In this document: one piece after another, positions 9,125 to 25,935 of the stretch | Numbering within the stretch: position 1 is the stretch's first letter | How the letters are laid out: every line of letters begins with the position of its first letter | NCBI GenBank assembly: GCA_003697125.1 | Contig: RFGB01000309.1 | Coordinates: 1-34,024 of the forward strand | Direction: 5' to 3' | Length of the DNA: 34,024 nucleotides | DNA from: Alphaproteobacteria bacterium | GTDB taxonomy: Bacteria > Pseudomonadota > Alphaproteobacteria > Rhodobacterales > Rhodobacteraceae | The notes under the pieces: generated by a model | What the model saw: only the letters and a program-made list of their open reading frames with translations | Told to the model about the DNA's origin: nothing | Databases searched by the model: none | Position numbers and translations under genes: made by a program

Positions 9125-10768
9125 ATGCGGGGGGCGACGGTGGCCGGGCAGGCGCGCTTCGATGCGGAATACGACTATGTCATCGTCGGGGCCGGTTCGG
9201 CCGGCTGCGTCCTGGCCGCGCGGCTGAGCGAGGATCGCGACGTTTCGGTTCTGCTGCTGGAGGCGGGGGGCTGGGACCGTGATCCGCTGATCCACATTCC
9301 CCTGGGCTGGGGCAAGATCCTGACCGAGCGGCGCCATGACTGGGGCTATTTCTGCGAGCCCGAGCCCAATGTCGACGGCCGCGCGGTCGAATGCGCCCGG
9401 GGCCGCGTGATCGGCGGCAGTTCCTCGACCAATGCGATGGCCTTCGTGCGGGGCAACCCTGGCGACTATGACCGTTGGGCGGCCGGGGGCCTGCCCGACT
9501 GGTCCTATGAGCATGTGCTGCCGTGGTTCAGGAAGATGGAGGACTGGGAGGGCGGCGCGAATCGCTGGCGCGGGGCGGGCGGGCCGCTTCGCACCCAGTT
9601 CTGCCGCTATCGCGATCCGCTGATGGATGCCTTTGCCGCGGCCGGGCGCGGGGCGGGCTATCCGTGGACCGAGGATTACAATGCCGAAAGGCAGGAGGGT
9701 TTCGGCCGGCTGCAGATGACCATCCGCGGGGGGCGGCGCTGCTCGGCGGCGACGGCCTATCTGCGCCCGGCGCTGCGCCGGCCGAACCTGACCGTCGAGA
9801 CCGGCGCGATGGCGCACCGCGTGGTGATGGAGGGGCGGCGCGCCCGGGGGGTGGAATACCGCCGCGGCCGGATCCGCCGGGTCGCGGCGCGGCGCGAGGT
9901 GATCCTGGCCGGAGGGGTGATCAACTCGCCCCAGCTGCTGATGCTCTCGGGCATCGGCGATCCCGATGCGCTGGCCCGCCACGGCATCGACGCGGCCATC
10001 CCGCTGCCCGGGGTGGGGCGGAACCTCTCCGACCATGTCTCGGTGATCCTGATGTTCCATCGCCGCAGCCCGGGGCCCTTCCACCGGATGATGCGCGCGG
10101 ACCGGATCGCCTTCGACATGCTGCGCACCTGGCTGGGGTTCGAGGGTTTCTCGGGCGATGTGCCCGGGGGGGTGGTCGCCTTCCTGCGCACCGCCCCGGA
10201 CCGCCCGCTGCCCGATCTGCAGATCCTGTTCACCGCCGCCCCCCTGGCCGCGTGGCCCTGGTTCCCGCTGATCCGGCGACCGTTCCGCGACGGCTTCGCC
10301 ATGCGGCTGGTGGCGATCCGGCCCGAGAGCCGGGGCCATGTCGCGCTCGCCTCGGCCGATCCCGAGGCGAAGATCCGCATCCACCAGAACTTCCTGTCGG
10401 CCCCGGCGGACTGGGACAGCCTGCGCGCCGGCGTCCGCATCGCGCGCGAGATCGCCGCCCGCCCCGAGATGGCGCCCTTTGTCGAGGCGGAATTCTTCCC
10501 CGGACCCGGCTGCGCCGGCGGCGCGGAGATCGACGCCCATATCCGCAAGACCGCGATCACCGTGCATCACCCCGCGGGGACCTGCCGGATGGGCTCCGAG
10601 GCGGATCCGCTGGCGGTGGTCGATTCGCGGCTCAGGGTGCGCGGTGCCGAGGGGCTGCGGGTGATCGATGCCTCGGTGATGCCCGACCTGCCCAGCGGCA
10701 ACATCAATGCCGCGGTGATCATGATCGCCGAACGGGGGGCGGATTTCATCCGCTCCGGCGGGCAATGA
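9125..10768 (+). CDS. GMC-family FAD-dependent oxidoreductase; candidate 4-pyridoxate dehydrogenase or pyridoxine 4-oxidase
   Basis: This 547-residue flavoprotein has the N-terminal FAD Rossmann motif VGAGSAG (about 21-27), the GMC signature 1 region (..[21 protein letters not shown]..), signature 2 (..[21 protein letters not shown]..) and the C-terminal active-site pair: H482 in [10 protein letters not shown] and N526 in SGNINAA. The family oxidises alcohols. The vitamin B6 pathway uses GMC-type enzymes for pyridoxine 4-oxidase and, as I recall, 4-pyridoxic acid dehydrogenase, and B6-degradation genes lie 13 kb downstream; that link is inference. I chose ATG 9125, with GGCAGGG just upstream. 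Earlier starts at 9059 and 9089 would overlap or closely follow the operator and promoter. It is divergent from the GntR regulator and is followed by a 169-bp gap before the cupin gene. Confidence 0.88.
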
Positions 10769-10803
10769 TCGGCCGGGGCGCAGCCGGCGAAAGCGGCCGG
10801 CGT

Positions 10804-10862
10804 CAACCAGGGGCAACTGGTTGCGGATTGGTGGCGGCAGATTTCCATTGCATGGTTCAACC
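10804..10862. promoter_or_regulatory. Operator-like cluster of TGGTT/AACCA half-sites upstream of cupin operon
   Basis: In the 169-bp gap before the cupin gene lie CAACCAG-N6-CTGGTTG (10804-10823, perfect 7-base arms) and GGTTCAACC (10854-10862, symmetric about its centre). Isolated GGTTG copies follow at about 10874 and 10883. These half-sites resemble those of the dyad at 9046. This suggests that the cupin-to-TRAP operon has its own promoter under the same GntR regulator. Confidence 0.45.
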
Positions 10863-10937
10863 GGCCTGTCTACGGTTGCGCTGGTTGGACGAACCCGCCG
10901 GCGCGCTGCCGCCGGCATTCGGCAGGAGGGTGGCGAG

Positions 10938-23996: not shown

Positions 23997-24008
23997 GGGG
24001 AGGGGGCC

Positions 24009-25184
24009 ATGCGCTATCCCGACGACCGCCCGGCAGTGCTGACCCTGACCTCGGGGCCGGTGGATGCCTATCCCGAGGTGCTGCGGGCGCTGGCGCGCCC
24101 GGTGCTCTACGATTTCGATCCGGCCTTCATGGCCTTCTACGAGGCGGTGGCGCGCAAGGCCCAGCGGGTGATGCGCACCCCCGCCCCGCCGGTGATCCTG
24201 CATGGCGAGCCGGTTCTGGGGCTGGAGGCGGCGGCGGCCAGCCTGATCGGGCGCGGCGATGTGGTGCTGAACCTGGTCTCGGGCGTCTATGGCAAGGGGT
24301 TCGGATACTGGGCCGCGCGCCACGCAAAGCGGGTGCTGGAGCTGGAGGTGCCCTACAACGAGGCGATCGACCCGCAGGCGGTGGCCGAGATGCTGCGCCG
24401 CCATCCCGAGGTCGCGGTCGTCTCGGTGTGCCATCACGACACCCCCTCGGGCACGATCAACCCGGTCGAGGAGATCGGCCGCGTCGTCCGCGACCACGGG
24501 GCGCTGCTGATCGTCGATGCCGTCTCCTCCTTCGGCGGCATGCCCGCCGATCCGGAAAGCGCCCGGGCCGACCTCTATGTCACCGGCCCCAACAAGTGCC
24601 TGGGCTGCCCGCCGGCGCTGACGCTGATGGCGGTCAGCGACCGGGCCTGGGCGAAGATGAAGGCCAACCCGGATGCGCCGCGCGATTCGATCCTGTCGAT
24701 CCTCGACTGGGAGGAGGCCTGGCGCGCCGACCGGCCCTTCCCCTTCACCCCGTCGGTGGCCGAGGTGAACGGGCTCGACGCCGCGCTCGACCGCCATCTG
24801 GCCGAGGGGCCCGAGGCGGTCTGGGCGCGCCACACGCTGACCGCGCGCGCCACGCGGGCGGGAATCCGCGCCATGGGAATGCGGCTGTGGCCGGCGCGCG
24901 AGGAGATCGCCGCGCCCACCACCACCGCGGTGGCCTGTCCCGAGTGGATGGACGAGGCCGCGATCCGCGCCGAGGCGCGGGCGCGCTACGGGGTGGTGTT
25001 CTCCTCGGGCCGGGGCGAGACGCTGGGGCGGCTGACCCGGATCGGCCACATGGGGCCCACGGCGCACCCGATCCACGCGCTGGCCGCGCTCGCCGCCTAT
25101 GGCGGGGCGGTGAACGCGCTGGGGGGGCGCGCGGATGTCGGCGCGGCGATCGCCGCGGCGATGGCGGTGATCGATGCCGGTTGA
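24009..25184 (+). CDS. ppaT: Pyridoxamine-pyruvate transaminase
   Basis: This 391-residue fold-type I aminotransferase should convert pyridoxamine plus pyruvate to pyridoxal plus L-alanine; unlike other transaminases, it uses the vitamer as substrate and not as cofactor. The lysine that forms the Schiff base is K196 in VTGPNKCLG (K197 in the M. loti enzyme). Long stretches such as [33 protein letters not shown] and [20 protein letters not shown] agree with my memory of that enzyme, including arginines that bind the amino/keto acid carboxylate. ATG 24009 is 12 bases after the lactonase stop and has GGGGAGGGGG upstream. The order lactonase, transaminase, dehydrogenase is the same as in the M. 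loti B6 cluster (mlr6805-mlr6807). Confidence 0.95.
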
Positions 25185-25197
25185 GGGAGGAAGGCAG

Positions 25198-25935
25198 ATG
25201 CGGCTGAAGGACAGGGTGGCGCTGGTCACGGGGGCGGCGCAGGGCATCGGCCGGGCGATCGCGGCCCGGCTGGTGGCCGACGGCGCGCAGGTGATCCTGG
25301 CCGACGTGAATGCGGCCGGGGCCGAGGCGGCGGCGGGCGAGATGGGTGCCGCGGCCGCCTTCGGCACCGACATCGCCGACCCGCAGGCGGTGGCGGCGCT
25401 GTTCGAGGCGGTGGGCGCGCGCTGGGGGGCGCTGGACGTGCTGGTCAACAATGCCGCGATCGTGCCCTTCATCCCATGGGACGAGGTGGACCTCGCGCAC
25501 TGGAACCGGATCATCGGCGTCAACCTGACCGGCACCTTCCTGATGTGCCGCGCGGCCACCGACCAGATGCGCGCGCGCGGCCGGGCGGGGCGGGTGATCA
25601 ACATCGCGTCGAACACCGTCTTCGCCGGCACGCCGAACATGGCCGCCTATGTCGCGGCCAAGGCGGGGGTGGTCGGGCTGACCCGGGCGCTGGCCACCGA
25701 GCTCGGCCCCCACGGCATCACCGTCAACGCCGTCAGCCCCGGCCTGATCGAGAGCGATGGCGTGAAGGCCAGCCCCCATGCCCAGGCCTTCGAATTCGTC
25801 GAGATGCTGCAGGCGATCAAGGGCCGGGGCCAGCCCGAACATGTCGCCGATGTGGTCGCCTTCCTCGCCTCGGACGATGCGCGCTGGATGACCGGCCAGC
25901 TGGTCAATGTCGATGCCGGGATGATCCGGCACTGA
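25198..25935 (+). CDS. Pyridoxal 4-dehydrogenase (short-chain dehydrogenase family)
   Basis: This 245-residue SDR should oxidise pyridoxal, as its cyclic hemiacetal, to 4-pyridoxolactone with NAD. It has TGAAQGIG (11-18), VNNAA (83-87), the catalytic S138, Y151 and K155 ([14 protein letters not shown]) and a tetrameric-SDR C-terminus (..[13 protein letters not shown]). SDRs are hard to assign by motif alone. Here the segments [25 protein letters not shown] and [16 protein letters not shown] match the M. loti enzyme as I remember it, and the gene directly follows the transaminase. ATG 25198 has GGGAGGAAGG upstream; an upstream in-frame ATG at 25174 overlaps the previous gene. Confidence 0.93.

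Follow-up and report, generated by a model that had tools for sequence, protein, structure and literature searches.

The question raised by this locus is how the degradation of vitamin B6 is completed when the first steps of pathway I are encoded and the classical ring-opening steps are not. The window, meaning the whole stretch of 34,024 nucleotides that was analyzed, belongs to assembly GCA_003697125.1, which is 95% complete. A first-pass annotation had assigned three adjacent genes at 23190–25935 to the first enzymes of pathway I. This assignment was borne out, as the transaminase, the pyridoxal 4-dehydrogenase and the lactonase all exceed curated NCBIfam cut-offs. The genes follow a putative B6 importer, as listed here:

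18517–23161, + strand: ABC importer of the Bmp/PnrA type, made up of a binding protein, an ATPase and two permeases; candidate for B6 uptake
23190–23996, + strand: 4-pyridoxolactonase (NF047925, 451 bits against a cut-off of 325; best solved relative PDB 3aj3)
24009–25184, + strand: pyridoxamine--pyruvate transaminase (NF046070, 651 bits against a cut-off of 600; best solved relative PDB 2z9u)
25174–25935, + strand: SDR-type pyridoxal 4-dehydrogenase (NF047923, 395 bits against a cut-off of 325)

A second operon precedes this one, together with a divergent regulator gene:

8254–8976, − strand: GntR/FCD-family regulator, divergent from the operon (Pfam FCD and GntR)
9046–9060, no strand: palindrome ATGGTTGACAACCAT between the GntR and GMC genes, candidate regulator-binding site
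9125–10768, + strand: GMC oxidoreductase, candidate 4-pyridoxate dehydrogenase (Pfam GMC)
10938–12089, + strand: gentisate/salicylate-dioxygenase-type bicupin, candidate ring-opening dioxygenase
12146–13279, + strand: LVIVD-repeat propeller protein, candidate hydrolase after ring opening (Pfam LVIVD; AlphaFold pLDDT 85)
13286–13672, + strand: RidA, enamine/imine deaminase family (Pfam Ribonuc_L-PSP)
13683–14282, + strand: GST-fold protein, possible isomerase (Pfam GST_N/GST_C)
14279–15202, + strand: FHMPC 5-dehydrogenase ortholog, HCDH family
15206–18008, + strand: TRAP transporter DctQ, DctM and DctP (family scan)

The HCDH-family enzyme fits the FHMPC step, as had been proposed. It scores 495.6 bits against NF042925, just under the cut-off of 500, and the FHMPC dehydrogenase structure PDB 4om8 is by far its best relative (410.8 bits, 3.4e-122; the next structure gives 138.9 bits). 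The GMC oxidoreductase likewise stands where a 4-pyridoxate dehydrogenase was expected. It is 71% identical to the GMC gene that adjoins the FHMPC dehydrogenase in a classical cluster (L108), and no 4-pyridoxate-dehydrogenase-specific model matched it in the NCBIfam scan. A pyridoxine 4-oxidase ortholog was not found within the window, where the sole match was this same GMC gene at 36%. Plasmid records searched for the FHMPC dehydrogenase at E ≤ 1e-60 gave none.

The reading preferred here, to which a probability of roughly three in four is given, is that the two operons provide for B6 uptake and complete degradation through a variant of pathway I, in which an Fe(II) bicupin opens 3-hydroxy-2-methylpyridine-4,5-dicarboxylate (HMPDC) between C3 and C4 and so replaces the decarboxylase, MHPCO and the hydrolase. 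The compounds entering the pathway would be pyridoxal and pyridoxamine. The early steps would be those already known: the transaminase, pyridoxal dehydrogenase and lactonase would yield 4-pyridoxate, which the GMC oxidoreductase and the HCDH-family dehydrogenase would convert to HMPDC. The bicupin may hold the pair formed by the 3-hydroxyl and the 4-carboxylate as salicylate dioxygenase holds salicylate and, with O2, cut the ring at C3–C4, taking the place of decarboxylation, MHPCO ring opening and hydrolysis. The product would be HOOC-C(CH3)=N-CH=C(COOH)-CO-COOH, an imine of pyruvate, and its hydrolysis would release pyruvate and aminomethylene-oxaloacetate. RidA could deaminate the latter, with the LVIVD propeller and the GST-like protein as candidates for hydrolysis and isomerization of the C5 remainder.

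Small clusters elsewhere suggest a different use for such genes. Of 8 clusters that carry no late genes, 7 combine importer genes of the Bmp/PnrA type with adjacent genes for a transaminase and a pyridoxine-oxidase-like protein, and these clusters have the look of salvage. The window's cluster might likewise be for salvaging or detoxifying B6, in which case the ring would stay closed and the cupin would be a regulator or some unrelated enzyme. This is very hard to credit here, since the lactonase, the FHMPC dehydrogenase and the cupin are all present, lactone opening and C5 oxidation destroy the vitamin, and the iron site of the cupin is intact.

The first-pass annotation had reported the classical decarboxylase, flavin ring-opening oxygenase and hydrolase as absent from the window, and tblastn at 1e-3 indeed gave no match there for MHPCO, AAMS hydrolase or HMPDC decarboxylase. 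It had also advised a search of the remaining genome. This contains no MHPCO ortholog (best match 58.9 bits, 39% over approximately 149 residues), and none occurs in the 49 genomes G000–G048. At E ≤ 1e-25, with up to 36 candidates scored, AAMS hydrolase was found in 0 of 64 cupin genomes, the window's own included, and in 6 of 6 classical controls. As no ortholog was found, the idea of classical late enzymes hidden elsewhere in the genome was rejected. Two genomes (G042 and G046) have MHPCO relatives at 39–44%, adjoining a gene that, by eye, is alpha/beta-hydrolase-like; these were not accepted as true MHPCO, since paralogs at a like 39–44% are present in Mesorhizobium genomes alongside the genuine enzyme.

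For the decarboxylase, the search of the own genome gave only a class II aldolase on another contig, 40% identical, where four classical controls gave 87–100%. A homolog of some kind was matched at 1e-10 in 21 of the 64 cupin genomes. Together, the aldolase and these homologs leave room for decarboxylation prior to cleavage. The aldolase also feeds an alternative considered unlikely, namely that the cupin module opens a B6-derived ring at another intermediate: 4-pyridoxate, FHMPC, or a compound formed by a decarboxylase whose gene lies elsewhere. 4-Pyridoxate carries a 3-hydroxyl and a 4-carboxylate, and the same pair is already present in FHMPC. Against a separate decarboxylase, 19 of 22 Mesorhizobium cupin genomes gave no match even at 1e-10.

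The two endings were compared within the genus Mesorhizobium. An FHMPC dehydrogenase ortholog is present in 56 of 146 genomes, of which 22 have the cupin and 34 have MHPCO, with none having both and none having neither; as the species are kin, this split does not represent 56 independent events. Scoring covered up to 15 and up to 13 candidates per genome. The count includes G121, whose MHPCO spans two contigs, and leaves out G165 (a 118-residue MHPCO piece and no FHMPC dehydrogenase match) and the HCDH matches of G067 and G176, which at 36–41% were not taken as orthologs. The late modules thus swap exclusively, a cupin block for a classical MHPCO block.

Classical clusters have AAMS hydrolase, MHPCO and the decarboxylase, identified through PDB 3kxp, 3alj/3gmb and 2z7b, respectively, in the slot between the regulator and the GMC/FHMPC dehydrogenase genes. 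Comparison of the cupin-type M. loti DSM 2626 with six classical clusters revealed 90–98% identity for the importer, PPAT and PLDH (PPAT and PLDH being compared with one of the six), 81–85% for GMC/HCDH and 53–55% for the left-flank oxidase; the cupin and the regulator had no match. The two cluster types share the importer and early genes and differ as a single block. The place of the TRAP transporter is taken by an NMT1/THI5-type ABC importer in M. loti DSM 2626 and in further loci of the genus.

Beyond this genus, the window's cupin falls in one tight clade, represented by 61 public loci, most of which share its neighbors. Scored by tblastn identity thresholds (e.g., GMC 54%, HCDH 50%), the LVIVD protein is present in 59 loci, GMC in 58, RidA in 58, GST in 56 and the FHMPC dehydrogenase in 48. 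The carriers are Rhizobiaceae, Rhodobacteraceae and other Alphaproteobacteria. A sample of the window's own order had the transaminase in 4 of 321, own genome included, which is too sparse for counts. The LVIVD and GST-like proteins, which the first-pass annotation left unnamed, are usual members of the cluster.

The co-occurrence of the cupin with B6 genes, which had been put forward as a check, held for most loci. Besides the FHMPC dehydrogenase in 48 of 61 loci, the transaminase is found in 37 of the 48 cupin genomes searched, a count that leaves out 11 of the 61 loci (all Mesorhizobium) and L049. The expectation failed for 11 of 49 mapped loci, where the locus has no FHMPC dehydrogenase and the genome no transaminase; the cupin module therefore also exists without the early B6 genes. 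Cleavage at another intermediate gains from the Rhodoplanes- and Roseomonas-type loci, where GMC, cupin, LVIVD, RidA and GST are kept without an FHMPC dehydrogenase. It loses from the mapped transaminase-positive loci, 35 of 37 of which keep this gene in the cluster; in the other two, the DNA stretch ends at or soon past RidA.

The bicupin itself had been described as gentisate/salicylate-dioxygenase-like, and it matches solved gentisate 1,2-dioxygenases (PDB 3bu7, 2e-55), with its model reaching Z 29.6–32.1 against GDO/SDO structures. It lies far under the NCBIfam cut-off of gentisate 1,2-dioxygenase TIGR02272 (223.3 against 442.1 bits) and the curated cut-off of 5-aminosalicylate dioxygenase (202 against 650 bits), and in the tree its clade is separate from the gentisate-type rows (100/100). 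The predicted iron ligands H118, H120 and H159 are kept, as are R82, R126 and H161, the equivalents of Arg83, Arg127 and His162, which include the carboxylate-binding arginines.

Two further positions of the alignment are altered. Among cupin ortholog rows with a letter there, Gln108 is replaced by Arg in 61 of 61 (Arg107 in the cupin) and Asp174 by Ser in 62 of 62 (Ser173); the one row gapped at three positions most probably belongs to L064, a contig-edge fragment with a match that begins at residue 108. Non-clade rows have D at 174 in 11 of 11 and Q at 108 in 10 of 11. According to PMC11264262, equivalents of both residues are present in all known GDOs. In salicylate dioxygenase, Asp174 touches the 5-hydroxyl and Gln108 the carboxylate, as described in PMC10306065. 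Judged by sequence, the two replacements would suit a substrate that lacks a 5-hydroxyl and bears a second carboxylate. The arginine would place an extra positive charge beside the carboxylate site, which would fit a vicinal dicarboxylate and speaks for HMPDC over the other intermediates.

The same enzyme could suggest an ordinary gentisate/salicylate-type aromatic pathway lying beside the B6 genes by chance. Such a pathway shares the fold and catalytic residues of the cupin, and maiA-annotated genes, presumably of GST fold, also occur in gentisate clusters. However, the FHMPC dehydrogenase sits within the cupin operon, the cupin and MHPCO exchange exclusively, and Asp174 and Gln108 are altered in all orthologs, while separate gentisate-type cupins of the own genome keep Gln and Asp. 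Moreover, the scanned cluster proteins include no fumarylacetoacetate hydrolase, whereas its gene is close to 4 of 5 annotated gtdA genes examined. A plain gentisate pathway was rejected on these grounds of linkage, exchange, residues and absent hydrolase, and is rated as highly improbable.

The preferred reading of direct HMPDC cleavage leaves the roles of the remaining genes to be assigned. RidA was confirmed near the cupin; its R103 and E117, which do not vary among the 19 sequences aligned, are taken to be the catalytic Arg 105 and Glu 120 of the archetype. For the LVIVD protein, the lowest E-value in Foldseek belongs to the phosphotriesterase 5hrm (1.6e-16); by Z, 5hrm (30.9 over 348 aligned residues) ranks level with WD40 proteins (best 31.2), and the fold of the model, as predicted, is a generic propeller. 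The GST-fold protein may be an isomerase, as its analogy to maleylpyruvate isomerase suggests. In the closest relative (L009), neither RidA nor GST stands between LVIVD and HCDH, a point against the preferred reading, so that the cluster does not strictly require them.

As for control, most of the 61 loci have a GntR/FCD relative in the corresponding position, and the 9-mer GGTTGACAA is present in 36 of 49 GntR–GMC stretches, including that of the window. A copy of the palindrome was sought upstream of the Bmp gene as a site shared by both window operons; none was convincing.

The earlier reading of a variant B6 pathway with cupin ring cleavage is thus supported by the absence of late enzymes, the co-occurrence, the 22/34 split in Mesorhizobium and the active-site changes. 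We infer HMPDC as the exact substrate, the C3–C4 bond, the pyruvate imine and further products, and the roles of LVIVD, RidA and GST; cleavage of HMPDC between C3 and C4 is the most likely reaction. A broader proposal, regarded as moderately probable, is that of a third bacterial B6 route. A gentisate-type Fe(II) bicupin would open HMPDC directly, without decarboxylase or flavoenzyme, and pyruvate and an enamine would be formed, with RidA and a propeller hydrolase acting next. The module would have been cassette-swapped with the classical one within a genus, and clusters without early genes would be 4-pyridoxate specialists. No cupin in a B6 pathway appeared among the matches listed from the literature on how B6 is degraded and pyridine rings are opened, which is weak evidence of absence as subscription journals lay mostly outside. 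If correct, B6 degradation has a third ending, the gentisate/salicylate bicupin family gains a pyridine-ring-opening reaction, functions are suggested for the LVIVD propeller protein and RidA, and the annotation of such cupin genes is improved.

The nearest known system is B6 pathway I of Mesorhizobium loti MAFF303099 and Pseudomonas MA-1, which shares orthologs of the transaminase, pyridoxal dehydrogenase, lactonase, GMC and FHMPC dehydrogenase and, within Mesorhizobium, also the importers and the slot between common genes. Where pathway I has HMPDC decarboxylase, MHPCO and AAMS hydrolase, the window has the bicupin, LVIVD, RidA and the GST-like protein. The 2,5-dihydroxypyridine dioxygenase NicX presumably has a fold unrelated to the bicupin. 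It is reported to be an Fe(II) dioxygenase that opens a pyridine ring (PMC7910607). Gentisate 1,2-dioxygenase (3bu7, 2d40) and the salicylate 1,2-dioxygenase of Pseudaminobacter salicylatoxidans (2phd, 3njz) share the bicupin fold, the three iron histidines and the Arg83/Arg127/His162 equivalents, and differ from the window's cupin at Gln108 and Asp174 and in clade. The 5-nitrosalicylate 1,2-dioxygenase NaaB (8ch4) is, according to PMC10306065, a cupin that has also lost the Asp174 equivalent and opens salicylate without a 5-hydroxyl; it is a monocupin with Tyr for Arg127, whereas the window's bicupin retains the Arg127 equivalent.

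The window holds two operons on the + strand, arranged head to tail, the first of which sits behind a divergent GntR/FCD regulator.

9125-18008, + strand: first operon, encoding a GMC oxidoreductase, a bicupin, an LVIVD-repeat protein, RidA, a GST-fold protein, an HCDH-family dehydrogenase and a TRAP transporter
18517-25935, + strand: second operon, encoding a Bmp-type ABC importer followed by a lactonase, a transaminase and an SDR dehydrogenase

The last three genes of the second operon exceed the curated NCBIfam cut-offs for 4-pyridoxolactonase, pyridoxamine--pyruvate transaminase and pyridoxal 4-dehydrogenase, respectively. 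The HCDH protein scores 495.6 bits against the FHMPC dehydrogenase model (cut-off 500), and its best solved relative is FHMPC dehydrogenase 4om8 at 410.8 bits, the next reaching 138.9. The coordinates and family assignments of the first-pass annotation are correct. An orthologue of pyridoxine 4-oxidase was not found in the window, the sole match to the enzyme of locus L024 being the GMC gene at 36%.

Several further genes surround these operons. Upstream of the regulator lie a second TRAP transporter and, behind it, an HbpS-like gene (4693-8222). A small protein gene without a Pfam match (25971-26345, 124 aa) stands behind the pyridoxal dehydrogenase. Branched-chain-type ABC importer genes (26405-31053, - strand) converge with the B6 operon, and beyond them is an aldo/keto reductase gene (31161-32744). 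A gene for a small, apparently secreted protein (18005-18472, - strand) diverges from the Bmp gene. Similar genes seem to recur beside B6 importers at other loci (L135 4881-5339, L140 5162-5587 and L129 2418-2858), as judged by eye rather than by alignment.

The cupin (10938-12089) represents a separate family whose gene neighbourhood is fairly constant. Scanning genome contigs turned up 61 loci that encode a cupin with 57-78% identity to that of the window. Within the fetched stretches, and by identity thresholds on tblastn, the neighbours were LVIVD (59), GMC (58), RidA (58), GST (56), FHMPC dehydrogenase (48) and the Bmp protein (46), with LVIVD, RidA, GST and GMC all together in 55 of the 61. 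Six loci are exceptions to the full set. In the closest relative of the window cluster (L009 4913-6974), HCDH directly follows LVIVD, with no RidA or GST between them; the stretches of L042, L045 and L064 have one end at or close to the cluster; L063 and L066 have the cupin but not this cluster. In a tree of 71 cupin rows, which omits the fragment L064, a branch supported at 100/100 sets off the window together with 60 of the 61 loci. Of the outside rows, nine (gentisate-type and other) stand well apart, and one Paraburkholderia cupin lies nearer to the clade, on a long branch.

For Mesorhizobium, the FHMPC dehydrogenase, the flavin ring-opening oxygenase (MHPCO) and the cupin served as queries against 146 genomes. 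An FHMPC dehydrogenase orthologue (83% or more) is present in 56 genomes, at 92-100% to the query in 22 and at 83-86% in 34. The 22 genomes of the first group are exactly those with the cupin (96-100%) and the 34 of the second exactly those with MHPCO (92% or more), a set check returning no genome among the 56 with both or neither (Fisher p 5e-16, the genomes being non-independent). Genome G165, outside the 56, has a 118-residue piece of MHPCO and no FHMPC dehydrogenase match. The classical late enzymes were identified through solved relatives (AAMS hydrolase 3kxp, MHPCO 3alj/3gmb, decarboxylase 2z7b). In the classical clusters at loci L108 and L100/L101 the order is an oxidase and regulator (divergent), AAMS hydrolase, MHPCO, a PF06684 protein, a PBP-like protein, decarboxylase, GMC, FHMPC dehydrogenase, importers, lactonase, transaminase and pyridoxal dehydrogenase. 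In cupin-type clusters this slot is taken up by GMC, cupin, LVIVD, RidA, GST and FHMPC dehydrogenase. We know of no pathway step assigned to the PF06684 and PBP-like genes, which in L108 (7386-8453) lie between MHPCO and the decarboxylase.

When the cupin-type M. loti DSM 2626 is compared with six classical clusters, the two importers, transaminase and pyridoxal dehydrogenase are 90-98% identical (the latter two from one of the six clusters), whereas GMC and FHMPC dehydrogenase are 81-85% and the left-flank oxidase 53-55% identical. Its cupin and regulator have no match in the six. A single block thus distinguishes the two types, which have the importer and early genes in common. Genetically, this argues strongly that the cupin block takes over the function of the classical ending.

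The classical late enzymes were also sought in the genomes that carry the cupin. No MHPCO orthologue was found in 49 genomes (the window's own and 48 others), the best matches being 44% in G042 and 39% in G046, with 58.9 bits in the own genome. AAMS hydrolase was absent from all 64 cupin genomes at E<=1e-25, with six of six classical controls matched. The decarboxylase of 3-hydroxy-2-methylpyridine-4,5-dicarboxylate (HMPDC) gave nothing at 1e-10 in 43 of the 64 and at most 45% identity in the remainder; the same query matched four classical controls at 87-100%. The own genome encodes a class II aldolase 40% identical to the decarboxylase, on another contig.

Among 26 transaminase-positive genomes, a sample partly overlapping the Mesorhizobium and cupin sets, eight had the cupin and five MHPCO; none had both, and 13 had neither. 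In eight of these 13, a small cluster combines the transaminase with a pyridoxine-4-oxidase-like gene and a GntR regulator (L116, L124, L127, L128, L129, L135, L138 and L140), seven with Bmp-type importer genes; lactonase and late genes are absent from these stretches, and the clusters probably provide for the uptake and salvage of vitamin B6, not for its degradation. Four more have only a divergent transaminase (57-59%). The last, the Mesorhizobium genome G145, has a transaminase beside shortened pyridoxal dehydrogenase and lactonase genes (L133 5273-7336) and no FHMPC dehydrogenase match, a B6 cluster that is apparently decaying.

The transaminase was present in 37 of the 48 cupin genomes searched. 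These genomes trace back to 50 of the 61 loci, of which one dropped out and two share a genome. Of the 49 mapped loci, 35 combine FHMPC dehydrogenase at the locus with the transaminase in the genome, L009 alone has only the former, and L042 and L045 only the latter. The remaining 11 have neither. Nine of them (L051, L054-L060 and L062; by record title Rhodoplanes, Roseomonas, Xanthobacteraceae and other MAGs) retain the GMC, cupin, LVIVD, RidA and GST genes; the other two are L063 and L066. Ten of the 11 fall inside the cupin clade, and L063 is placed, with weak support, near the base of the clade. It is possible that the nine clusters, the main loose end here, belong to users of 4-pyridoxate that lack the early genes.

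Alignment to salicylate dioxygenase (SDO) shows that the cupin keeps the iron ligands H118, H120 and H159 and residues R82, R126 and H161. Two positions are changed: Arg107 replaces Gln108 in all 61 cupin rows that have a residue there, and Ser173 replaces Asp174 in all 62. Of the 11 remaining rows, which represent 10 distinct proteins, all 11 have Asp and 10 have Gln. Excerpts of PMC11264262 describe Asp174 and Gln108 as conserved among all known gentisate 1,2-dioxygenases (GDOs). According to excerpts of PMC10306065, the gentisate 5-OH is contacted by Asp174 and Trp104 and the carboxylate by Arg83 and Gln108, and 5-nitrosalicylate dioxygenase is inactive on gentisate because it is missing Asp174 and Trp104. 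As HMPDC carries no group in the position of the 5-OH and bears a second carboxylate beside the first, the added arginine and lost aspartate would suit it as substrate. The AlphaFold model of the cupin (pLDDT 74) matches GDO/SDO structures at Z 29.6-32.1, the next cupins reaching 20.5.

In the proposed mechanism, the substrate would bind the Fe(II) of the cupin bidentately through its 3-O and 4-carboxylate, with O2 activation as in SDO. Cleavage between C3 and C4 would yield HOOC-C(CH3)=N-CH=C(COOH)-CO-COOH, which would be hydrolysed to pyruvate and H2N-CH=C(COOH)-CO-COOH. RidA, in which R103 and E117 are conserved throughout the 19 sequences aligned, would deaminate the latter, and the C5 acid would be broken down further. 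The LVIVD protein is the cupin's most constant companion among the 61 loci. It has a propeller fold in which many His and some Cys residues are invariant. Foldseek matches it best to phosphotriesterase 5hrm, but this is tied with WD40 propellers by Z. On these grounds it is the likeliest candidate for the hydrolase of the ring-opened product. In gentisate pathways, maleylpyruvate isomerase isomerises the ring-opened product; by analogy, the GST-like protein may do so here.

A cupin in B6 degradation was not found in the open-access literature, among the matches listed, and the degradation routes in excerpts of PMC3538738 and PMC6253932 are without a cupin step. The cupin ending is not a new kind of system; it is a new variation on a known pathway, in which a known enzyme fold receives a new assignment.
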